Source: an uncultured Granulosicoccaceae bacterium (GTDB taxonomy: Bacteria; Pseudomonadota; Gammaproteobacteria; Granulosicoccales; Granulosicoccaceae). From it: a stretch of DNA of 64,000 nt. The notes beneath the pieces were generated by a model. The model was not told the origin of the DNA. It did no database searches and saw nothing but the letters and a program-made list of their open reading frames with translations. Below, one piece after another: positions 617-35,949 of the stretch; positions within the stretch are counted from its first letter, which is position 1, and each line of letters starts with the position of its first letter. The stretch spans positions 1 through 64,000 of the forward strand of contig CALHCI010000035.1 of NCBI GenBank assembly GCA_937931165.1, written 5' to 3'. The translations under genes and the position numbers were made by a program.

Positions 617-3346
617 TTAGGCGGTATAACGATTGACTGAATCGTCAAACCACAGCCGCACTGCCTCAACCTGAAATTGATACCGACCATCTGCCTGCTC
701 AATGATGTTGCGCTGTTCCAGTGTTTGCAGCGTATCACTGTGCCGTAGTGCCGGAAGCGCTGTTGCAATTGCACGCTTCGTGGCGCCGCTATCACCGGAA
801 GCTGCCAGAAAAGACACAAGCTCACGCCCTGCATCATCCATCTGATTTAATTCAATATCGGTAAAAAATTGCTGACCACGCTGTAAAATAAGCGGAATAC
901 ACAAGTCAATATCGTGCACTGTGGCTATTTGCCTTTGTGATTCAGGCTGGCTGTTTTTTAGCGCAATGAGTTCGGCGCAGGTAAGCTGCACCAGATAGGG
1001 GTGACCGCGGGTAAACTCAAATATTCGCTGGCTTGCGTCCGGGTGATAGTCGAGCGGGTAGCCTGCGATGGGTTGCTCAATCAGTTGTTTTGCTTCACTG
1101 GATGACAGATAGCCGAGTTCAATGACCTGGGCATTAACAAAATACGTTGCCCACCTTTTAAAGTCCACCAGTGTATGGGAGCCCACCAGCATAATCTTGA
1201 TTCTGGCGCGATGTTGCGCAACATGTCTGAGCATGCCGAGCACCGCGTGATCACGCAGGGTGCCCTCGCGCAGCGCAATGTCCAGGGCTTCAAACTCATC
1301 GAGTGCCAGCAGCATGGTGTCGCAGCCCTGGGTTAGCATTTCTGATTCAATGGTGTTGAGCCAATCGTCGAATTTAATAAACGGGTCTTTGTTGAGGTCT
1401 TCGCGAGGCAATGATGTTAATTCAATGTTTGCTCTTGCTGCTGCCCGACACATCGAACGTATCAGTGCATAGACAAACCCGCTATGATCCTGAGCCAACC
1501 CTACAGGCCCTTGCAAATCGACTATTAAGGTCAGAATGTGGCGAGGTAACATCCAGTGCAACTGATACAGCAGCGATGTTTTACCCATTCGCCGCGGCCC
1601 GTAGAGCAGCAACGGCGGGTGGTCTTGTTGTTTCAGAATATTCTCAAGAAACCGCGCGATATCGGTGCGACCGACAAAAATTTTCTGCTTGCGGGTTAAC
1701 GGTGCACCGACGGTGTATGGGTTCGGTATTTCATTGCTGGCTTTACTTTGTGCCTCTGCCCGCTGCTGGAACCTGGTAAGAATGCCAATCCAGTGTTTGC
1801 ATACCGGTATGAATCGTCGAGAGTTTTTGTCTTTTAGGTTTCTTGCCAGTTCCAGCTGAAGGTTCTCGATATCCTTTAAGATTGTACGAATAACCAGTGT
1901 CCGGTTGTAGCTGGTGGGTTGTGCCAGTGCTGTCGAAATATCCGAACCAAACCTTGTGAAAGATTTAAGGATAAGGCCACCTGATGTGTCCAGTAGACCT
2001 GCTGCGTAGTCATATTGTGTGTGCGTGAGCTCCCTGATAGTAGATAAAGATTCTAAATGCCGTGCATCCAGTTCCAGCAGTGCTGACTGTGCTGCCCAGC
2101 GCTGGTTGGAATTGGAAATGCGATCTATATACTTAACTCCTAAGGATTTGTCATGGGATGCGATTTCGGCCAGGTAGTCGTCCAGTTCGTAAAGCGGGAG
2201 CATCTGAATTTCGTCCCATTGAGCCGAGTGCTTGTTAAAATGTTGTGGTGGTCCGCCAGTACGATATTCTGTCTCCAGTAATGCCCGATTCCAGGCTGCT
2301 TCGAATGGATAGGCTATAACCGACCATAATTGCCGGAAAAATACACCGCCCAGAATAAAAGCCACGGCAGTCATCAGGTTAGTGATCAGTGGATAAAGCG
2401 TGTAGGACACCAGTAACCCGTAATGTATGGTGAGCCCGCCGATAGCGCCTGATATCGTTGCAGCCCATCCGCCAACGAAAGGCATCACCAGTGCGTACGG
2501 TAGAATCGACACCAAGCAGAAGGTTGACGCAATGACTGTGAACGAGGCGATGGTAAGTGAGTCACCCCCGGCACCGCGATCGTATTCGTATCCGAGATCA
2601 CCAAATCCGGTGGTAACTACTGTAACGCAGAATATTGCCGGTCCAATGAGCCGATAGAATTTTCGTGTTCGTATAAAAACAGAAAGAGACAACAGGACCA
2701 ATGGCGGTATGACCATTGTCCAGATTAAAACACTGCCATCCATCACTCCTGATTGCCTGCTTGCTGTATTCATAAAAATGCCATACGCAATAATTGCTGC
2801 CAGCGGTAGTCCGATAATCAGGCCCAGTACAATTGCCCCTGCCTGTCGTATAGTGCTGAATTCTGTACGCTTTACAGTGTGACTGGATGCGGCGGCTATG
2901 GTGCAGGCCGACCAGCACCCAAAGAGTGCGCTTAACTTGTGTGAGGTAACCAGGTCAAACACCAGTACGTTATTGCCACTCCACTGAAAAAATATCAGCA
3001 AAGTACCAACACCATAAAAAAGCATACCTGCTGGAACACTGACATAGACAGCGGCTGTAAGTGTGAGCATATACACGAAAAGAAAGGCGGTCAGAGCGCC
3101 GGATAGACTGGAATTAAATGCCCACAGCAATAGTATTGATATAGCGAAAATACTAAGCGGGAAAAAAATCAGACTGTAAATCAATATTTTTCGAACTGCC
3201 GGTTTCCTTATCTGCTGGATACTAAGATCACACAGCGCAAAGTTGGGTAGTAGATTGTTGTCTGAATTTTCAACCGTTACACGCCACTTTGTTGGACTAA
3301 CGAGAACATGGAAGAAACTGACGAGGCTTTGGTTCAGCGGGTGCAT
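617..3346 (-). CDS. Ten-helix membrane protein with C-terminal STAND/AAA-like ATPase
   Basis: This is a 909-residue protein. After a polar N-terminus of about 50 residues come roughly ten hydrophobic segments (about residues 53-345), then a helical linker, then a P-loop ATPase. IFVGR marks the ATPase start, Walker A is GPRRMGKTS (about residue 583) and Walker B is MLLALDEFEALD (about 679). The last ~90 residues look like a winged helix. This order (membrane domain, ATPase, C-terminal helical domain) is that of signal-transducing ATPases rather than transporters. The start codon overlaps the stop of the upstream lipoprotein gene as TAATG, so translation is probably coupled. The upstream regulator carries a very similar ATPase (GQRRSGKTS). 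I infer a membrane-bound sensor or switch, but the ligand and output are unknown. Confidence 0.75.
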   Translation of the reverse strand: MHPLNQSLVSFFHVLVSPTKWRVTVENSDNNLLPNFALCDLSIQQIRKPAVRKILIYSLIFFPLSIFAISILLLWAFNSSLSGALTAFLFVYMLTLTAAVYVSVPAGMLFYGVGTLLIFFQWSGNNVLVFDLVTSHKLSALFGCWSACTIAAASSHTVKRTEFSTIRQAGAIVLGLIIGLPLAAIIAYGIFMNTASRQSGVMDGSVLIWTMVIPPLVLLSLSVFIRTRKFYRLIGPAIFCVTVVTTGFGDLGYEYDRGAGGDSLTIASFTVIASTFCLVSILPYALVMPFVGGWAATISGAIGGLTIHYGLLVSYTLYPLITNLMTAVAFILGGVFFRQLWSVIAYPFEAAWNRALLETEYRTGGPPQHFNKHSAQWDEIQMLPLYELDDYLAEIASHDKSLGVKYIDRISNSNQRWAAQSALLELDARHLESLSTIRELTHTQYDYAAGLLDTSGGLILKSFTRFGSDISTALAQPTSYNRTLVIRTILKDIENLQLELARNLKDKNSRRFIPVCKHWIGILTRFQQRAEAQSKASNEIPNPYTVGAPLTRKQKIFVGRTDIARFLENILKQQDHPPLLLYGPRRMGKTSLLYQLHWMLPRHILTLIVDLQGPVGLAQDHSGFVYALIRSMCRAAARANIELTSLPREDLNKDPFIKFDDWLNTIESEMLTQGCDTMLLALDEFEALDIALREGTLRDHAVLGMLRHVAQHRARIKIMLVGSHTLVDFKRWATYFVNAQVIELGYLSSSEAKQLIEQPIAGYPLDYHPDASQRIFEFTRGHPYLVQLTCAELIALKNSQPESQRQIATVHDIDLCIPLILQRGQQFFTDIELNQMDDAGRELVSFLAASGDSGATKRAIATALPALRHSDTLQTLEQRNIIEQADGRYQFQVEAVRLWFDDSVNRYTA

Positions 3347-4722
3347 TACTGGTTCGGTGGCGTGTATTGGCTGGTGGCGATGGCTGCTGCATCTTCCGTT
3401 GTGATTTGTCCGTCAATAACTGCTGCAAGCGCATTGACAACACTGTGGTAAAAACTTACAAATTCTGGTTGGTGACCTTTTGCCATCGAAATGTCGATGC
3501 TCTGTATTTGCGGCGTTTTACCGGTAGGCAAAAGTGAATTGAAAACCGGTATTACCTGGGATGTATTGACGGCATGTGCGTGCACTAGACGGGTTTTATG
3601 CAGCTGTTGTAGTAATTTGCAGCTTTGTTGCTGGTTTTCTCTACCGGTTGCCTTTTGATTGAAAATAAAATGCGACCCTATTGACCGAATGGCGACTCGC
3701 CCGGCACTGTCATTATTTAGCGCAGGCAATAGCGCCATGCCAATGTTGTGGCTGAGAACGTCCTCTTGTGAAATGTGGTCCAGCTGCATGCGCTTCCATT
3801 CAGAGCTACTTGCAACAGCAAATAATATTCTTCCGTGAGCTATGGCATCTCTGACCGTTAACCTGTTGCTTAGGTTTGAAAAATTCCGCTGTGTTGCTGC
3901 CTTATGTAGCAGGCCTTTGTGATGCAGGTTCAGGTAGTAGTCAAACGTTTTCTCAAGAATGGCTTTATCGATAGAAAAAGGTAAATTCTGTAAGTCATGC
4001 TGACCGCCAAGGGCATTATAGATTCCCATGAGTGGATAGAAAATCTGCTCGGGGGGTAAATAGGCGTAGCCCTTTTCTACAATGCCGTTATTTAGAGCAT
4101 GTATTGCAACCTCTGTCAGATCTTTAAGCGTGAATTCACCAGCGGCGATACGGTCGGGTAGCTTGTTAATGTCATTTTCGCTCCAACCCGTTTCCCGCAA
4201 AAGTACTTTGCTGTAAAAGAGAACGTTGGCGTCGACCTCAAAAGGCAGGCTCCATTTGCCCTGAATATACAGGTCCGGATTCCACCTGGCGGTGTGTGAT
4301 TTGCATTTTTCTAAAGGGTAGAGATAGCCATTTTCAATGAGTTTTTCGAGTTTTGAACCGTTGTAGTAAAACGCGATATCAGGTGCATTACCTTTTTCGG
4401 CAGCTGATTTAATCAGGTTAAAGTAGGGCGTGGAGTTGATATTTTTCTCTACCGGTATAACGGATATGTCGGGTAATGACTGACTGGCTTCGTATAGCGC
4501 ATACAGTCTCAGGCAGTGTTGCCGTGGTGCCGGTGCCCATATGTGCAGAGTATTGTCTTCATTTGAGGGGGCGGTTACGTCTACACCGCAATAATCCGCC
4601 GAGGTTGGTGGCGGCGGACGTGGTAACAGGTCGCACCCTGCTGTCATGACTGCAATCGCAACTATTCCTATTGCAGTAAACAGGCGTGTTGTTGCAACTG
4701 ATGAAGCGCGTTGTCTCGCCAT
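3346..4722 (-). CDS. Orphan extracellular solute-binding lipoprotein (sugar type)
   Basis: The product is 458 residues. The N-terminus is a lipoprotein signal: a short basic stretch, a hydrophobic core and the lipobox VMTAGC. The mature part resembles family-1 (maltose/multiple-sugar) binding proteins, with LHIWAP near the start, then APDIAFYYNG, YLYPLEK and the W-LPFEVDANVLFYSK block. Length fits the family. No ABC permease or transport ATPase lies nearby. Instead it sits between two signalling-type ATPases: its 5' end overlaps the BTAD gene by 55 nt and its stop overlaps the next start by 1 nt. I infer a periplasm-facing ligand sensor rather than a transporter component. Part of a transporter encoded elsewhere is the alternative. 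Confidence 0.75.
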   Translation of the reverse strand: MARQRASSVATTRLFTAIGIVAIAVMTAGCDLLPRPPPPTSADYCGVDVTAPSNEDNTLHIWAPAPRQHCLRLYALYEASQSLPDISVIPVEKNINSTPYFNLIKSAAEKGNAPDIAFYYNGSKLEKLIENGYLYPLEKCKSHTARWNPDLYIQGKWSLPFEVDANVLFYSKVLLRETGWSENDINKLPDRIAAGEFTLKDLTEVAIHALNNGIVEKGYAYLPPEQIFYPLMGIYNALGGQHDLQNLPFSIDKAILEKTFDYYLNLHHKGLLHKAATQRNFSNLSNRLTVRDAIAHGRILFAVASSSEWKRMQLDHISQEDVLSHNIGMALLPALNNDSAGRVAIRSIGSHFIFNQKATGRENQQQSCKLLQQLHKTRLVHAHAVNTSQVIPVFNSLLPTGKTPQIQSIDISMAKGHQPEFVSFYHSVVNALAAVIDGQITTEDAAAIATSQYTPPNQ

Positions 4723-6266
4723 TGCTCTGTACCGGTATTATTGCGGGTTGCGAGGTATTTCTCCTGACAGAGTAGCTGTAGCAGGCACGGCCATCGACCA
4801 CTGTGTTCCAGTATCCATTCTCGTTCCTCGTGAGAATAGTGTTCGTCGATATTGTCTATAAATTCAATTGCCTCATGTTCTTCGAACGGACCAAGTTCTA
4901 CAGTACTGAAAATATTAAAAAACGGTGAAGATTTATCCAGCCGGTCTGCAGCCCTCATGGGTTGTTCGTAAGAGGCGACCACAATGCCGATAAACCCGTC
5001 GGTCATCTGCGTTAGCGCACGCATCGCCCACCAGAATGGCTGATCCAGTTCATCTGCTGCCAATCCCGCATCCAGCTCGTCAATCAGAATGATTGTCGGT
5101 ACTGTCCATGGATTTTCAGTGGCGAGGTCCATAAACTGTTCAAGGGTGCAATGGTCTGGTGTGTCAATGTCAAATCCGTTTAGCAGGTGCGATAGCAGCC
5201 CCGATAATGTCCGCATTCTCGGGTCTTGGAAGTCGACGAAAATCCATCGGTAGTTATCGGCGTCAGGCAGCCAGTTGGTTTTCTGAGTAACACCGCGTGC
5301 TTGCGGACAATTGCCGCTAATCGGTTGCAGATGTTTTAACAGTGAAGTCTTGCCGCTGCGTCGTTGGCCAATGATTGCCACGTGCCCAAGCGGTGGTTGT
5401 TGCCACCAACCGAATATTCGTGTCAGATAATCTTCTCTGCCAAAAAAATGTTCTGGCGAATTGATCGGTGGTCCGACTATAAATTTGTGATGCGCTGTGT
5501 TTTTATGTGACCGCAGCGGTGGGTCAGTTCGGGTATGATGCTGTCCGTCGATAAGCTGCTGGTAATAGCGCTGTATCTCTGTTGATGGATTAGTGTTTAG
5601 TTCAGTTGCAAGAATCTCTCTGCAGTGCTCAAACTGCACGATCGCGTTTGCACGTTGCCCGCTGCTCACGAATTGTGTCATGAGTTGCAGATGAATATCT
5701 TCTCGGTACGGGTTGTTCTGGATGATAGTTTGTAGATAGGGGATCGCCAGTTCAGGTGACTCCTTATCTATTAATATGATGGCAATATTTTCGAGCGTTT
5801 TAATGTATTGATCATGTAGATGTGTGCGTACCCTGGTAATCCAGTCATCATAGGGGGTTGCCCCCCGAATTCTAAACCCGCTGACGAAGTCGCCCCGGTA
5901 GTGATCGGTTGCGTGTTGGAGCTGACTGACGTCGTTAGTTTGTTGTATTGCACTTGCAAAGACGTGGCTGTCAATTTCAAACCTGGTGGCAGAGCACAGC
6001 TGCAGTGTTTTACGGTTAGATTCTAATAGTCGGATTTGGTGGTTCTCTGACATCAACTTAATCTCATGCAAGATACCCCTCAAATTTGCCAGTGCCTGAC
6101 TATCGTGTTTATCTGTCCACAACAGGTTAGCAATGTGTGTTCGGGATTGGGGTGTTTGAGTTTGCGCAAGATAGATCAGCAAGGCGAGTGCTTTTGTTGA
6201 AAAGCCGGTTTCTTCCGATTCGTCAATCCATATCGCAGCACTACCGAGTAGTTTAAACGTGATCAT
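4668..6266 (-). CDS. BTAD (SARP-type) regulator with AAA/STAND ATPase domain
   Basis: The product is 532 residues. Residues 1-95 form a winged-helix domain starting MITFKLLGSA, the usual start for this family. Residues ~100-250 are the helical bacterial transcriptional activation domain (QFEHCREILATEL is characteristic). From ~275 follows a P-loop ATPase with FFGRED, Walker A GQRRSGKTS (about 301) and Walker B IILIDELDAG (about 395). Such SARP-like proteins are best known from actinomycetes, where they activate transcription; in gammaproteobacteria they are less common. No long TPR tail follows the ATPase. The last 55 nt overlap the start of the lipoprotein gene. It is probably the cytoplasmic transcriptional output of this locus. 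Confidence 0.8.
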   Translation of the reverse strand: MITFKLLGSAAIWIDESEETGFSTKALALLIYLAQTQTPQSRTHIANLLWTDKHDSQALANLRGILHEIKLMSENHQIRLLESNRKTLQLCSATRFEIDSHVFASAIQQTNDVSQLQHATDHYRGDFVSGFRIRGATPYDDWITRVRTHLHDQYIKTLENIAIILIDKESPELAIPYLQTIIQNNPYREDIHLQLMTQFVSSGQRANAIVQFEHCREILATELNTNPSTEIQRYYQQLIDGQHHTRTDPPLRSHKNTAHHKFIVGPPINSPEHFFGREDYLTRIFGWWQQPPLGHVAIIGQRRSGKTSLLKHLQPISGNCPQARGVTQKTNWLPDADNYRWIFVDFQDPRMRTLSGLLSHLLNGFDIDTPDHCTLEQFMDLATENPWTVPTIILIDELDAGLAADELDQPFWWAMRALTQMTDGFIGIVVASYEQPMRAADRLDKSSPFFNIFSTVELGPFEEHEAIEFIDNIDEHYSHEEREWILEHSGRWPCLLQLLCQEKYLATRNNTGTEQWRDNALHQLQQHACLLQ

Positions 6267-6302
6267 TGGCTGCGGTAGATGTGCTTTGCAAGCCGTTGCA
6301 GG

Positions 6303-7127
6303 TTACACAGCAACGCGTTCACACGCGAAACCCCGGCCTGCATCCCGGCCCTTTAATTGAGAAATCAGATCTGCCGCAATATCGTGGCTTAACCGGTCCT
6401 GCAGAGAAAAGGCATCGGTTGCGCTATTGTCGTAAATATTGGCCCAGACGTATTGGCCGTTCAGACGGTTTAACAGCTGCACCGCAACTCTGGCGCGCTC
6501 CCCCTGGAATTGCAGGTTACAGTTTACCTGATAGTTCGCGTCGCGCTCTGCTATCGCATTTTTTATTTGTAGTTTTATTGACGTGTTGTTTAATAGCCTT
6601 GCAATAACACCGTCGCAAAGGCCGCTGGCGACGTGAGCGTCTTTTTCGCTGTCTGTACACTTGAATGGGCCAACAATGAGTGACGGCATGTTGTTTTCTT
6701 CAGGGTGCGGATCGTCGATTAACTCGGCGGTGATCATATAGCCACGACGGGTGACAGTGCGAAGATGCTTGCTGTTGTCGCCCAGTGATTTACGAATATC
6801 TACTATGCACTGAACAAGACTGTCATCGGTGACACAGACACCTTTCCAGATTGCTTTTACCAGGGATTCTTTTTCAACAAGGCGGCCACTGTGTTGGCAC
6901 AGGTGTATGAGTACATCAAAAGATTTTGGTCGAATCTGAACAAAGCTGTCATCGGGTAAAACAATGCGGTTTTGCCTGGGAATGACCTTTGCTGTACCGA
7001 TTTTGAAGTAAGCAGATTTTGTTGGAGTGTCGTTGACGTGTTTTTCTGAATCTGTAGCAACGCTCTGCAGGTCATTGCCGGATGTTGTTCGTACTCTCTG
7101 TATTGGATGTTCGGTGATCGTCTCCAC
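6303..7127 (-). CDS. CadC-type winged-helix regulator without membrane anchor
   Basis: The product is 274 residues from a GTG start at 7127. I chose this start because AAGGAG lies 6 nt upstream (7139-7134); a longer frame reaches 7190 but has no such site. Residues ~40-137 are an OmpR/PhoB-type winged helix as in CadC (QIRPKSFDVLIHL, TDDSLVQCIVDIRKSLGD, VTRRGYM). Residues ~145-265 match the TolB-like/adenylate-cyclase-associated domain often fused to CadC helices (LIVGPF, YVWANIYD, FSLQDRL). No transmembrane segment links them, so it is probably cytoplasmic. The gene leads the 6266-617 set with a 36-bp gap and is probably its first gene or its regulator. Confidence 0.75.
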   Translation of the reverse strand: METITEHPIQRVRTTSGNDLQSVATDSEKHVNDTPTKSAYFKIGTAKVIPRQNRIVLPDDSFVQIRPKSFDVLIHLCQHSGRLVEKESLVKAIWKGVCVTDDSLVQCIVDIRKSLGDNSKHLRTVTRRGYMITAELIDDPHPEENNMPSLIVGPFKCTDSEKDAHVASGLCDGVIARLLNNTSIKLQIKNAIAERDANYQVNCNLQFQGERARVAVQLLNRLNGQYVWANIYDNSATDAFSLQDRLSHDIAADLISQLKGRDAGRGFACERVAV

Positions 7128-7723
7128 GTGATACTCCTTATGGCGAATGGATATGCCGCTAAATTCCTGACGGCGAAGACACTGTATCACGCGTGCGTCG
7201 TTAAATCGTTTATTGCATCGTTAGTTTTTCGTTGTTGTTGCCTGCGTTAGTCGCATTTGCGTATAGAGAAATTACTGACCGGGAATCTATTGACGCACTG
7301 CATTTAGTGGTGTTTTTGTCAATAATACAAATGGGTGATACTTCAACTGGTGCTACTGCTTCACGTTGGCCTGTATAGGCAAGAGTAGAGCAGTTTGCCA
7401 GTGCCGCCTGTCTGGTGATCACGATGTGGTGGCGGTGAGTTGATGTTGTTGTTCGCTGGTTGGCGTGCCGGTAACAATCCTCTGCTTTAGGCAACATTCC
7501 TAAAGCTGACGATAAAACAAACGTAGTAACGCTTCCGGGTGTTCTGTTTGTTTTTGCTGTGGTCGGGATTTTGTGTCTTTATTTCGTTCGCTATTCGGAC
7601 TTGTCATTTGTTAGCAGTGATCTTGTTGTTTCGCTTAATCACCATGTTCGCCGAAGCACTGTTGCGCCGTAGCACGTAAGCAGACCGAGATAGCCATTTC
7701 TTTGCACGATCTCAAAGTAGAAC
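7128..7723. other. Intergenic region upstream of the regulator locus
   Basis: No convincing gene is seen in about 600 bp. A minus-strand frame at 7210-7497 (95 codons) has biased, low-hydrophobicity composition and no recognisable motif, so I do not call it. The region should hold the promoter of the 7127-617 gene set. No clear terminator was found. Confidence 0.4.
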
Positions 7724-8017
7724 TTACCGTCTACCGGTGGAATATAAGTTGATAAAACACACCGGTGTCGTCTTCGTCGTAAACAATACTATAGAGTTGC
7801 AGACGATTGCAGAGCGAATCTTTCGATCACGCCCCTGCAGCTCCTCGATATCCCTGCACGGCTGTCGTGTGACAACTTTCAATCCATGCCCCATTTCCCC
7901 GCCTTCGTGGATTGTGCCGTCATAGGCCGGCAGGTCGTTTTCGAAGATCTCGACAGGCTCGAGCCCGGCATCCGCAATGCTGACAATTTTTTCTCGTAAT
8001 GCACCACTGAGCGACAC
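7724..8017 (-). pseudogene. Remnant of sugar phosphate isomerase/epimerase-type TIM barrel
   Basis: The first ~60 residues (SLSGALREKIVSIADAG, PVEIFENDLPAYDG, then RQPCRDIEELQGRDRK) match the N-terminus of sugar phosphate isomerase/epimerase (xylose-isomerase-like TIM barrel) proteins, where the block is typically AGFDGVEIFENDL. Homology then ends and the frame stops after 97 residues; a full protein has about 270-300. The rest of the barrel is not found downstream. I call it an N-terminal gene remnant, probably not functional. Confidence 0.55.
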
Positions 8018-8089
8018 GGTTGCGAGAAAGATGGGTAAATGTGGTGGCCTCGGCTAACGCTGACGAATCAGAAATACATTATAATAATC

Positions 8090-10369: not shown

Positions 10370-11940
10370 CTGATACAGGTCTTGAGTCCGGACCACGCTC
10401 AACGGACAGCTCGGTTGAGAAGTTTGTACAGGAAAATGAATCCTACTACAGCCGGCAGTTTGCCAAAATTCAGGGCACCACCGGTTTTGCATTTAGCTGG
10501 AATACCATGGCGGCAGTGTTTGGTCCGCTCTGGGGTGCGTTGCGTGGTGCATGGGGGTTCTTCTGGACGTTTCTGGTGCTGGAGCTTTTTGCACTGGTAC
10601 AGATTGGTCGCGGGTTATGGGGTGAGTTGGGTGCAAGCCAGTTGGCACGCTACGAAAAACTGTTGGCCAACATTGCCAAACGGGAGCAACAGGCAAAAGA
10701 TTTAATTGCAGCAGGTGATCAGGCTGATGCTGAAGCCAAGTTAAAAATTGCCAGTAACTTGAAACGTGTTGCCGCAGAAGCCAAGGCAAAAGCAGACGCT
10801 GCTGCCAATGAGGCAGTTTCTATTCTTGTTACCGGTCTGGTCATGCTGTTGGTGGTGAAAATTATCGAAGGCTTTGTGGCCAACCGCAGTTACGAAAAAC
10901 AATACTTGCGCTGGCGCGCAGATCCTACCGTGCAGTCAGGTCTTAGTCGATTGAGCGCCGGGTTTGGTGCATTGTTGTTGTTGGCTATCTGGCCATTAAC
11001 GCTGTTTCGTTTTACCGTCTCTGACCCCGACAGCAAACTGTCGGCCTTAACCGGTGGTTTTATCGGCGGCAAAATCCCGATTACTGAATTCCCGGTAAAT
11101 CGTGAATACTTCGCGGTGCTGGCTAAGAAGGGTGATGCCGGCTTTGACTGGTTGGCGATAAATTTCAGTCATGTATTTGAAGGCATTACCAAAGGTATTC
11201 GTACGGTCCTTGATGGTTTGGAAATTGTACTGATACAAACACCGTGGCCGGTGGTGATGATTGTGATTGTTGTGATGGCGTTACGGCTCGCAGGCATACG
11301 CGTGGCAATATTCACTGCTGCGTCATTGCTCTATTTAGCGTTTATGGGGCTTTGGGAAATTTCCATGATCACCGTCGCGTTGATTGGTGCCGGTGCTTTC
11401 CTGTGTGTGATTATTGGTATTCCACTCGGTATCTGGTTTGGCAAGTCAAACCGTGCATATGCATTCGCTGAACCGGTGCTCGACTTTATGCAGACTATGC
11501 CGGCGTTTGTTTACCTGATTCCAATCATTGCTTTCTTTGGTACCGGTAAACCACCAGGCGTACTTGCCACTTTGATTTTTGCCATGCCGCCGGTCATCAG
11601 GCTGACTGCACTGGGCATGCGTGGTGTACCGGAAGCAACCAAAGAAGCGGCGGTGGCATTCGGTTGTTCCAAATGGCAGTTGCTGCGCAATGTCGAATTA
11701 CCTCTGGCCATGCCGTCCATTATGACTGGCATAAACCAAACCATTCTTATGTCGCTCTCTATGGTGGTTATCGCTTCATTAATCGGCGCTGAAGGCCTGG
11801 GCGCATTGATTCTTGAAGCGCTGCAGTATGCTGCTAAAGGGCAGGGATTGCTCGGCGGGCTTGCCATATTACTGTGCGCCATGGTCATTGATCGTATTGC
11901 GCAGGGCATGTATCGCAGAAAGGTAGGGACTGCGAGCTAG
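10366..11940 (+). CDS. Betaine-type ABC permease with extra N-terminal domain
   Basis: The product is 524 residues. The C-terminal ~250 residues are a ProW/OpuAB-type permease with the EAA motif GVPEATKEAAVAFG (about 420-433), which contacts the ATPase. The first ~245 residues are extra: an aromatic FSWNTMAAVFGPLWG block followed by hydrophobic stretches (reminiscent of DUF2628), an Ala/Lys-rich coiled coil around 100-145 (YEKLLANIAKREQQAKDL), then further membrane segments. Ordinary ProW proteins are ~350 residues or fewer. The extension may regulate or localise the transporter, but its role is unknown. Confidence 0.85.
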   Translation: MTDTGLESGPRSTDSSVEKFVQENESYYSRQFAKIQGTTGFAFSWNTMAAVFGPLWGALRGAWGFFWTFLVLELFALVQIGRGLWGELGASQLARYEKLLANIAKREQQAKDLIAAGDQADAEAKLKIASNLKRVAAEAKAKADAAANEAVSILVTGLVMLLVVKIIEGFVANRSYEKQYLRWRADPTVQSGLSRLSAGFGALLLLAIWPLTLFRFTVSDPDSKLSALTGGFIGGKIPITEFPVNREYFAVLAKKGDAGFDWLAINFSHVFEGITKGIRTVLDGLEIVLIQTPWPVVMIVIVVMALRLAGIRVAIFTAASLLYLAFMGLWEISMITVALIGAGAFLCVIIGIPLGIWFGKSNRAYAFAEPVLDFMQTMPAFVYLIPIIAFFGTGKPPGVLATLIFAMPPVIRLTALGMRGVPEATKEAAVAFGCSKWQLLRNVELPLAMPSIMTGINQTILMSLSMVVIASLIGAEGLGALILEALQYAAKGQGLLGGLAILLCAMVIDRIAQGMYRRKVGTAS

Positions 11941-32441: not shown

Positions 32442-32577
32442 CGGTTCGTCTTCTGGACAGGTGCAGTTGTATCGTTATAGATACTGAAAAGGACAGTGCC
32501 GGGGAATCGTACTGAATGGATAACAATACCGTGTGATGGTAACCTGCACAGGCGAGTTATTCGGTAGTTTTAAGTTT

Positions 32578-35500
32578 ATGGAAAATCTGGAAGACTGGCT
32601 CGGGAAATTAGGGCTCTCGTGTTATTTCGATCTCTTTGTAGAAAATGACCTCGACCTCGACATTCTGCCTGAGGTATCGGAGGCACATCTGGAGGCACTT
32701 GGTGTATCCCTCGGGCATCGACTGAAGTTAGTTCGAGCCATCAGGCAACTGTCTTTGCCTGCACAGATTGATACAGCACCTATACCTGTTTCTGATCATA
32801 CATCAGGCATGTTGCCCCCGGAAAACGCACCTGCCGAGGTCGCGGAAAGGCGGCATCTCACGGTGATGTTTGTTGATCTGGTCGGGTCTACCGCATTGTC
32901 TACACGACTCGATCCGGAAGACCTCAGAGACGTCATCAGATCTTTTCAGGAAGCCGCCACTCGCGAAATCAAACAGTTTGACGGTTTTATCAGTAGGTAT
33001 ATGGGAGACGGCATACTCGCGTATTTTGGCTGGCCAAGGGCACATGAAGATGATGCCGAGCGTGCGGTTCGCGCAGGCCTTGCGGCAAACAAAGCGGTGG
33101 CGGCACTGGTGACACCGGATGGTGTCGCATTGGCGGCACGCTCAGGCATAGCGACCGGTCTGGTGGTGGTGGGAGATGTGATTGGTGAGGGAGCCTCAGA
33201 AGAAGAGGCAGTGGTTGGCGAGACCCCTAATCTGGCGGCGCGTTTGCAGGGTGTTGCCGAACCGGGTCAACTGGTGGTCAGTGATGTTACCCGTCGGCTG
33301 GTTGGCGAGTTGTTTCAGTTTGAGCTACTTGGAAACCTTTCTCTTAAAGGGATGTCGGTGCCGGTGCCATCATTCCTGGTGGGGTTAGAACGTGTAGCAC
33401 CGTCAAGATATCACGCCAGTCGCAAGTCAGGTCAATTGCCGCTGATTGGACGTGAAGCGGAGTTCATGCAGTTGCAGCAGCTTTGGAAGGTCTCGTGCGA
33501 CGGAGATGGTCAAACGGTTGTAGTCAGTGGTGAAGCAGGTATAGGTAAATCCAGAGTTATTGATGCGTTCTGCAACGACAGCGAAGCGGAAAACGCCAAT
33601 TGTGTAATCCTGCAGTGTTCCCCTCACCACACCCAGTCTGCGCTTTACCCGGTGTGGCAGTGGTTACTTCGCGCTTCAGGTGCGGGAGAGTTAACAACCG
33701 ACAACGAGCGGTTTGCAAAGATATCCGAATACTTTTCGCGTTGGTCAGCTACACAGCAAATAGCTGGTCTTGCCGCTGCTAATCTTGCTATTTCGGCGGA
33801 GCCGGTTAAAAAGTTTCTGGATCAGGGGCCGGATCAGCTTAGAAAAAATACCCTGAGTGAGCTTGTATCATTTTTTCTATTAATGTCTAAAACAGGGCCT
33901 GTCCTGATTGTCGTTGAGGATGAGCACTGGATAGATCCGTCCAGTCAGGAATTTTTTGAAGAACTGGCAGCGCGAACAACTACCGAGCGATTGATGTTGG
34001 TACTTACCACAAGATCTAAAGTTGCACAGACGCTCTCTGTTGCACAGGATATTAACCGGATCTCTTTAAACAGGCTTGGGCGAAGTGCCAGTGCAGACAT
34101 TATCAAGCAACTGACTGGTGGAAGAAAGTTACCTGATGAACTGCTTGGCAAGCTGATAGCAAAGACAGACGGTGTTCCACTGTACGTTGAAGAATTAACC
34201 AAAACCGTACTCGAATCCGGACAATTGTCAGAAAAGGATGATTCTTACGAGTCATCTGTTGGACTGGACAGTGTAGAGGTTCCTTCTACGCTGCAGGATT
34301 CATTAATGGCCAGGCTTGATCGTCTTTGGCCTATCAGAGAAATTGCACAGACAGCTGCAGTCATCGGCAGAGAATTCAGTTTTAATCTGCTTGAATCGGT
34401 GGTCAGCACCAGCAATAGCGATCTGGTTAGTGCACTGGAAAAACTACTGGATTCCGGGTTGATTTACCAGCGTGATCACCTTTCAAACATTGGCTATATT
34501 TTTAAACACGCGCTGGTCAGAGACGCCGCTTACAACAGTTTGCTTAAATCCCGACGACGGGAAATTCATGCAGTCATCGCTAATGTGCTGGCCAATGATG
34601 AGCGCTTTAGTGATATCGCAGAGCCTCAGCTTCTGGCAAAGCACTACTTGAATGCCGGAAACTATTTACGTGCCGTCGAGTTTAATCTTGCCGCTGCACA
34701 AAAAGCGCTTTCTAACTCTTCAAACAATGAGGCGTTGGTCCATGCTGCTGCCGGATTGGGTTTGATTAACAGGCTTGAGGCTAAACAGCGGGATAATTTG
34801 CAGCAAAGCCTGTATTTTTGCAGTGCCATGGCACAAAGAATATTACGCGGTTTTCATTCCGATGAGTATCTCGATGCGATTACCCGGGCAGGCAATCTGG
34901 CGGAGTCCAACAATGATACCGATACCCGTATTAATTGCGTGCGGGGACAATTTAATCATTACTTCAATCGTGGTCAGCATAAAGACGGCAATATTATTAT
35001 TGAAACGCAACTGGAGCCATTGCTGCAAAAACTGGACTCGGTATCTCCCGGCTCGACGCAGGGGGCGAATTATCTTTACCGGGGTGCGCTGCAGAATGCA
35101 TCGGATGAACTGACCGAGATGCTTGGTATTCTTGACCGTGCAGAAAAATACCCTGAAAGAACTTATGTGATTAACCCGGTGACATCGACACTGGCCAATC
35201 TGGGGTGGACAAAATGGTTGCTTGGGTATCCTGAACAGGCGCTCGCTGATGGCATGCTGGCGGTTGATACCGCTCGTGAAATCTCACAACCGTTTTCGTT
35301 TGCAATGGCGGTGGTGTGGGTAGGTCATACCCAATGCGCTGCGGGGTATACCGATAACTGGGGTGAGGTGCTGCGTGAGGCAACTGAACTCATTGATGAG
35401 TACGATATTCAGGCCTGGGCGCCAAGAGTGCGGTTTCTTTCCGGTAAATATATGGCTTCGAACATTGATCGTCCACAGTTTGAGCGTGGGCTTACCGAGA

Positions 35501-35949
35501 TGCGAGAAGCCATGGAACATATTGAAAGCCGCGGTTCCAAATTGTCCTGGACGTGGATGTGTGCGGAGTTGGCGCTGGAGTATTTGAAGCTCTCACAGTG
35601 GCAACTCTGTGAAAAAATACTGCTTAGCGGTATAACGCACGGTGAACAGAATGATGAAAAGTTCTGGTTGTCAGAGCTTTATCGCCTCAAAGGTTGCCAC
35701 TTGATAGCTACGGTAAATAATAAATCCAAAGCAATGCCATGGTTTAAGAAATCTCTGGATGTGGCGTTGTCTGCCGGGGCACGTTCATGTGTGCTACGTG
35801 CACAAATGGAAATCTGTCGGCAATACCCGGGTGATCATCAGGCCGTGAAATCACTGCATGACACAGCATCGTCGTTTCCGGAAGGGCAGCAGACTATTGA
35901 TTTGTTGATGGCTCGCGAATTTCGTATCGATTCAACATCTACTGCCTGA
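32578..35949 (+). CDS. SAM domain-class III nucleotide cyclase-AAA ATPase-TPR protein
   Basis: The product is 1123 residues from ATG 32578, which starts the SAM-like domain (MENLEDWLGKLGL) directly; the frame opens at 32533. Residues 1-65 are SAM-like. Residues ~90-275 are a class III cyclase: metal Asp in FVDLVGST and in YMGDGILAYFG, and transition-state Asn/Arg in ETPNLAARLQ. A P-loop ATPase follows (GEAGIGKS about 317; Walker B VVEDEHWIDP about 445), then a long helical repeat tail. The position before MGDG is Arg rather than the usual Lys, so nucleotide choice is uncertain. It is probably a cytoplasmic sensor enzyme. Confidence 0.85.
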   Translation: MENLEDWLGKLGLSCYFDLFVENDLDLDILPEVSEAHLEALGVSLGHRLKLVRAIRQLSLPAQIDTAPIPVSDHTSGMLPPENAPAEVAERRHLTVMFVDLVGSTALSTRLDPEDLRDVIRSFQEAATREIKQFDGFISRYMGDGILAYFGWPRAHEDDAERAVRAGLAANKAVAALVTPDGVALAARSGIATGLVVVGDVIGEGASEEEAVVGETPNLAARLQGVAEPGQLVVSDVTRRLVGELFQFELLGNLSLKGMSVPVPSFLVGLERVAPSRYHASRKSGQLPLIGREAEFMQLQQLWKVSCDGDGQTVVVSGEAGIGKSRVIDAFCNDSEAENANCVILQCSPHHTQSALYPVWQWLLRASGAGELTTDNERFAKISEYFSRWSATQQIAGLAAANLAISAEPVKKFLDQGPDQLRKNTLSELVSFFLLMSKTGPVLIVVEDEHWIDPSSQEFFEELAARTTTERLMLVLTTRSKVAQTLSVAQDINRISLNRLGRSASADIIKQLTGGRKLPDELLGKLIAKTDGVPLYVEELTKTVLESGQLSEKDDSYESSVGLDSVEVPSTLQDSLMARLDRLWPIREIAQTAAVIGREFSFNLLESVVSTSNSDLVSALEKLLDSGLIYQRDHLSNIGYIFKHALVRDAAYNSLLKSRRREIHAVIANVLANDERFSDIAEPQLLAKHYLNAGNYLRAVEFNLAAAQKALSNSSNNEALVHAAAGLGLINRLEAKQRDNLQQSLYFCSAMAQRILRGFHSDEYLDAITRAGNLAESNNDTDTRINCVRGQFNHYFNRGQHKDGNIIIETQLEPLLQKLDSVSPGSTQGANYLYRGALQNASDELTEMLGILDRAEKYPERTYVINPVTSTLANLGWTKWLLGYPEQALADGMLAVDTAREISQPFSFAMAVVWVGHTQCAAGYTDNWGEVLREATELIDEYDIQAWAPRVRFLSGKYMASNIDRPQFERGLTEMREAMEHIESRGSKLSWTWMCAELALEYLKLSQWQLCEKILLSGITHGEQNDEKFWLSELYRLKGCHLIATVNNKSKAMPWFKKSLDVALSAGARSCVLRAQMEICRQYPGDHQAVKSLHDTASSFPEGQQTIDLLMAREFRIDSTSTA

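Follow-up and report, generated by a model that had tools for sequence, protein, structure and literature searches.

The four-gene locus at positions 617–7127 of the window, the 64,000-nucleotide stretch of DNA analyzed here, encodes two homologous STAND/ORC-like ATPases, one carried by a polytopic membrane protein and the other by a SARP/BTAD-type transcription activator. As the best explanation of the locus we propose, with a confidence somewhat above even, that the two ATPases form a transmembrane signaling pair, and that a solute-binding protein (SBP) encoded between them possibly feeds the membrane partner.

Gene organization

All four genes lie on the minus strand and have intact reading frames. 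The most upstream gene, P0004 (6303–7127), encodes a winged-helix regulator of the CadC/OmpR type whose C-terminal domain is short (Trans_reg_C, E 3e-12); its maximal ORF runs from 7190 to 6303 on the minus strand, and the GTG at 7127 is the better start because AAGGAG is located just upstream. After a gap of 36 bp follows P0003 (4668–6266), a SARP/BTAD activator (BTAD, E 8e-20) fused to a STAND/ORC-like ATPase (rATP, residues 256–532). The P0003 gene overlaps by 55 nt that of P0002 (3346–4722), an SBP_bac_1 lipoprotein (E 5e-6), which in turn overlaps the P0001 gene (617–3346) by 1 nt, stop and start sharing base 3346. P0001 is a polytopic membrane protein with a C-terminal STAND/ORC-like ATPase (mATP) and a winged helix, as judged by its full-length homologues and a structure model. 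The initial annotation of this DNA had described four tightly packed genes on one strand with precisely these spacings, and both the arrangement and the distances are borne out. Pfam searches recovered the domains that it had named: Trans_reg_C, BTAD, SBP_bac_1 and Walker-type ATPase matches in both P0001 and P0003, those in P0003 scoring below the Pfam curated cut-offs.

The P0004 translation displays no strongly hydrophobic stretch or obvious membrane helix when inspected by eye, which is consistent with its earlier description as cytoplasmic. P0004, the CadC-type protein, probably lies outside the conserved core of the locus, and the four-gene set first put forward would not hold in that respect. 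In G+C content the locus is slightly lower than the sequence around it, as judged by the genes of the window. A promoter scan gave matches no more numerous than in shuffled sequences; terminator-like sites were more frequent (15 versus 8.7 in shuffles), yet they also occur inside genes, and neither result is informative on transcript structure. Elsewhere in the window, an ORF of 1138 aa (32533–35949) resembles, by eye, a SAM–cyclase–ATPase signaling protein.

Two homologous ATPases

The N-terminus of P0003 consists of a winged helix and a BTAD domain, as expected for an activator of the SARP/AfsR type. In the structure model (pLDDT 87; packing of the domains not confident, pTM 0.54), the best fold matches of the N-terminal half are AfsR bound to RNA polymerase (8k60) and EmbR, while the C-terminal half matches ORC/Cdc6 and the archaeal ATPase 2qen. 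The Pfam matches of the ATPase are to AAA_22, AAA_16 and ATPase_2, and the domain search found neither NB-ARC nor TPR repeats following the ATPase. By domain content, P0003 is thus SARP-like and not an AfsR orthologue.

The hydropathy scan of P0001 identifies nine membrane segments, and the structure model (pLDDT 84) contains about ten long helices followed by a linker and the ATPase, which makes the ten helices originally reported a fair estimate. The predicted extramembrane loops are mostly short, leaving little obvious docking surface. The modeled ATPase resembles 2qen and 2fna, and also NLR proteins; for the membrane part there was no specific-looking structural match among the top fifty. 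Full-length homologues at 35–38% identity (E about 1e-150) are found in Beggiatoa-type genomes and in Chloroflexota, where the best match in the sample searched (38%, E 1e-155) comes from a genome (that of L135) with a SARP/BTAD-rATP and mATP pair.

The two ATPases had initially been described as closely similar, and rATP and mATP are homologous along their length: hhalign aligns them over 228 columns with an E-value of 9e-23, while a direct BLAST comparison detects 39% identity over 56 aa only. Both domains retain an intact Walker A motif (GQRRSGKTSLL, GPRRMGKTSLL) and an intact Walker B motif (IILIDEL, MLLALDEF). The intact motifs, the AAA-type fold and the matches to 2qen, 2fna and ORC/Cdc6 place the two domains in a STAND/ORC-like P-loop class, with Pfam scores that fall below the curated cut-offs.

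The ATPase gene pair in other genomes

In searches of same-class genomes, full-length P0001 homologues concentrate in a single Beggiatoa-type family, presumably the group of Beggiatoa, Thiomargarita, Thioploca, Parabeggiatoa and Marithrix as judged by sequence. At least one P0001 match, mostly full-length, is present in 42 of 43 genomes of this family, and many have several. Beside the Beggiatoa-type mATP there is often a protein of 290–515 aa with an rATP domain, about 40% identical to that of P0003. P0003 alone as query gave no matches in the genome contigs; relatives emerged when its ATPase domain was used as an alignment. A scan of named genomes with this rATP-only alignment yielded 80 loci, of which some 70 are close relatives, in Beggiatoa-type Gammaproteobacteria, filamentous Cyanobacteria and Chloroflexota. 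An mATP gene is located at most four ORFs downstream on the same strand for 53 of 74 rATP genes, and eight of the remaining 21 sit at or near contig ends. Because the scan did not select for mATP, the adjacency is no artefact of the search; the scanned loci are phylogenetically related and hence do not count as independent events.

Ten Chloroflexota loci share the architecture of the window, a SARP/BTAD-rATP gene (523–572 aa) followed directly by an mATP gene (818–936 aa, two of these ORFs running to the contig end) at a spacing of −49 to +87 nt. The window has the same order on one strand, but with the SBP gene in between. Taken together, these comparisons support the view that rATP and mATP constitute a gene pair conserved across phyla, with the two as neighbors in three distant phyla.

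Among the neighbors of the Chloroflexota pairs, TadE (17/50) and CARDB (10/50) genes are frequent, accompany the majority of the SARP-type pairs and are mostly divergent from the pair, which suggests that cell-surface structures could be targets or signals of the pair in this phylum. Clusters of TadE/CARDB surface proteins divergent from SARP-rATP/mATP genes are seen at L135, L147, L154, L161, L164, L169 and L190. At L117:3346–6687 and L118:2299–5646, proteins of 1114–1116 aa combine a DctM domain with an end that weakly resembles FtsX; a few genes away are clusters that contain two genes for rATP and one or more for mATP. At L053 (9461–11314 and 5205–9331), a winged helix-ATPase with predicted membrane segments may be a single-chain analogue; its gene is divergently oriented to two others, one lipoprotein-like (DUF5666/DUF2807) and one for a TPR-ATPase.

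Output domains

The N-terminal domain attached to rATP varies: BTAD is found in 12 of 55 proteins and Cro/C1-type HTHs in further ones, while one protein has TIR and two have CHAT. The commonest recognized domains are transcriptional (BTAD, HTH). The TIR domain matches a ThsB-like model (E 2e-53). Apparent TIR and CHAT domains occur on cyanobacterial rATP relatives at L162:270–1598 (TIR) and at L127:9389–10816 and L133:9392–10822 (CHAT), and some mATP relatives bear GAF, CHAT or nSTAND1 regions. The replacement of the SARP part by Cro/C1-type HTH, TIR or CHAT in other proteins indicates that the N-terminus is a swappable output, an apparent exchange of domains that follows the logic of STAND switch proteins.

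The solute-binding lipoprotein

P0002 has the lipobox MTAGC, and the residue at position +2 after the cysteine is Asp. Under the enterobacterial rule, Asp at +2 specifies retention in the inner membrane, and by this analogy P0002 is probably anchored there. Neither a permease nor an ABC ATPase dedicated to P0002 is encoded alongside, and the locus does not qualify as an ABC sugar importer; the nearest permease gene, at 11416, belongs to a separate plus-strand set resembling ProX/ProV/ProW. In this respect P0002 is an exception among the 18 SBP_bac_1 genes found in the host genome, most of which have permeases nearby on the same contig.

Relatives of P0002 are scarce. None was detected at E ≤ 1e-3 in 274 same-class genomes, and weak relatives occur in three same-family genomes. 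Only one of 31 pair-bearing genomes searched contains a relative, which there occupies a LacI–SBP–permease–permease–ATPase operon of the ordinary ABC sugar type. BLAST with P0002 revealed no SBP beside any other examined pair, SBP_bac_1 is not among the 25 commonest families in 126 neighbors of other pairs, and among the examined pairs that of the window is the only one in which an SBP gene separates the rATP and mATP genes. An SBP as a conserved third part, the role that the lipoprotein had originally been given, is therefore rejected by the neighborhoods of the pairs and by the lack of a P0002 relative in 30 of the 31 pair-bearing genomes. It had been stated at the outset that finding the BTAD-ATPase, lipoprotein and membrane ATPase genes apart in most genomes would count against a common system; by that measure the three-gene version fails, while the two-gene ATPase pair passes. 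Permease genes always accompanying the lipoprotein had been named as the other counter-indication, and P0002, with no permease of its own, does not conform to it.

The relative in an ABC operon and the absence of SBPs beside other pairs point to P0002 being a derived ABC-type binding protein that joined the operon here. As P0002 is orphan, intact and tightly packed between its neighbors, it is plausible as an added input sensor rather than a conserved part, a role that rests on one genome since no other examined pair is accompanied by an SBP.

Origin and flanks of the locus

Thirteen same-genus genomes contain no P0002 and no close relative of P0003 (weak matches in two), and because the locus is missing from these sampled genomes it was probably acquired. 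In the rATP tree the window sequence falls among Chloroflexota, outside their SARP clade; holding it with Pseudomonadota gives an AU p-value of 0.076. In the mATP tree it groups with the SARP-type mATPs of Chloroflexota (83/99), and its branch is long in both trees. That the SARP fusion arose once is disfavored for rATP (AU p 0.019) but not for mATP. These phylogenies do not support the window pair being simply a Beggiatoa-type version. A phage origin found no support either, P0001 having no match in phage records.

Beside the locus, positions 7650–8060 hold a gene remnant reduced to pieces of both ends; its intact counterpart in a sister species (L286:1523–3388) encodes 621 aa with an AP_endonuc_2 TIM barrel and an HPPD-like region. 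Just downstream of the locus, positions 1–600 hold fragments of two kinds, one similar by eye to an EamA-type transporter and the other to a biotin/lipoyl domain. The fragments on both flanks suggest a site of insertion or rearrangement.

Discussion

Conservation of a membrane partner with a homologous ATPase suggests that rATP and mATP hetero-oligomerize as the signaling step. In the mechanism that we favor, P0001, as a polytopic membrane ATPase, would monitor the envelope, and its cytoplasmic ATPase would pair physically with the matching ATPase of P0003. A switch in nucleotide or oligomeric state would then release the SARP part of P0003, allowing it to dimerize at a promoter and bring in RNA polymerase in the manner of AfsR; by analogy, rATP would gate the SARP domain. 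P0002 may pass a ligand signal to P0001, much as GlnH signals via GlnX. In this scheme the physical pairing, the way in which the signal runs, the part played by the SBP, the ligand and the genes controlled are inferred. Envelope-to-transcription signaling, as first suggested for the locus, is compatible with one partner having an activator domain and the other a membrane domain; the three-part system that includes the lipoprotein does not stand as first stated. The TadE/CARDB surroundings in Chloroflexota are as expected for an envelope-linked regulator.

Each element has precedents. MalT-type STAND regulators are ATP-switched transcription activators with no known membrane ATPase partner; P0003 would be alike as an ATP-switched activator, but its ATPase subfamily and DNA-binding domain are different. 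Binding proteins of CUT1 ABC importers (MalE type) share the SBP_bac_1 family with P0002, which is distant in sequence and has no permease of its own alongside. In Streptomyces AfsR, with the order SARP–NOD–TPR, the SARP domain dimerizes on DNA and engages sigma factor and RNA polymerase, and the ATPase and TPR regions are inhibitory until ATP binds (PMC10936776). P0003 likewise has an N-terminal SARP/BTAD part, for which AfsR is the nearest solved structure, and behind it a STAND-like ATPase as its possible gate, but the ATPase is of the ATPase_2/ORC-like type, TPR repeats are absent and a membrane ATPase is encoded alongside. In the GlnH–GlnX–PknG system of Corynebacterium, a lipoprotein SBP signals through a membrane protein to a cytoplasmic output (PMC9769921), the same succession as suggested here; GlnX, however, spans the membrane four times, and the system ends in a protein kinase instead of a transcription activator with a paired ATPase. 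The NTPase conflict systems (Kaur et al. 2020, PMC7159879) have swappable effectors and similar hosts, in keeping with the TIR and CHAT variants among relatives of the window ATPases; the output in the window is a transcription activator.

The last comparison raises the alternative that the locus is a conflict or immunity module, in which STAND-type ATPases would respond to invasion or to damage of the envelope by triggering an exchangeable effector, here the SARP domain. We consider this unlikely, but it remains a serious reading because versions fused to TIR and CHAT exist in some cyanobacteria and many hosts are filamentous or multicellular, a group enriched in NTPase conflict systems (PMC7159879). 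The pair is also often multi-copy and is absent from the sampled sister species. Against this, transcriptional domains are the commonest of those recognized at the N-terminus of rATP proteins, nearly every Beggiatoa-type genome carries the pair, and the Chloroflexota pairs adjoin TadE/CARDB surface genes, not defense genes. PADLOC defense models gave no match to P0003 at E ≤ 0.001 and only marginal matches to P0001. Decay of an acquired island that has lost its function is an improbable account of the locus: gene fragments lie on both flanks and sampled sister species do not have the locus, but four intact frames, conserved ATP sites and a G+C content close to that of the surroundings speak against it.

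The remaining alternatives concern the SBP. P0002 could be an unrelated passenger, an ABC binding protein whose permeases were lost or are encoded elsewhere, which would be compatible with a core signaling pair. We regard this as a real possibility, if a little short of even: its relative in a pair-bearing genome occupies a normal ABC operon, P0002 accompanies no other examined pair, and the host genome is rich in permeases. On the other hand, P0002 is intact, its gene overlaps both neighbors, and permeases lie near the majority of the other SBP_bac_1 genes in the host genome. A tighter association, with P0001 as a transporter energized by its ATPase, P0002 as the binding subunit and P0003 as a local regulator, would explain why an SBP is encoded together with an ATPase domain and about ten membrane helices. 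It is nevertheless very improbable, as the P0001 ATPase is STAND/ORC-like and P0001 has no ABC or BPD_transp_1 match in Pfam, its homologues occur without SBPs, and a crude count gives much lower numbers of membrane segments for some relatives.

The signaling pair that we prefer appears to be new in its paired arrangement and in the insertion of the SBP, each part being of a known kind. BTAD, SARP and solute-binding proteins are not mentioned in the eLife papers on NTPase conflict and death-domain systems, and no description of the rATP–mATP pair was found in a literature search of partial coverage (few papers were searchable), in agreement with the initial annotation, which knew of no named system with this set. 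The pair may represent an undescribed class of transmembrane signaling, a prospect that we rate just below even: two homologous ATPases, one polytopic and one with a swappable output (SARP, Cro/C1 HTH, TIR or CHAT), common to Chloroflexota, filamentous Cyanobacteria and Beggiatoa-type bacteria, and here with the addition of a binding-protein sensor.

Within the family of giant and filamentous sulfur bacteria, nearly every genome contains the pair, often in several copies, and no assigned function was found for it. The swappable output domain makes the pair directly testable. Most known routes from the envelope to transcription involve phosphorelays, sigma/anti-sigma pairs or one-component membrane regulators. 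A matched pair of ATPases would, if true, be a different route to transcription, with a logic like that of paired NLR receptors.
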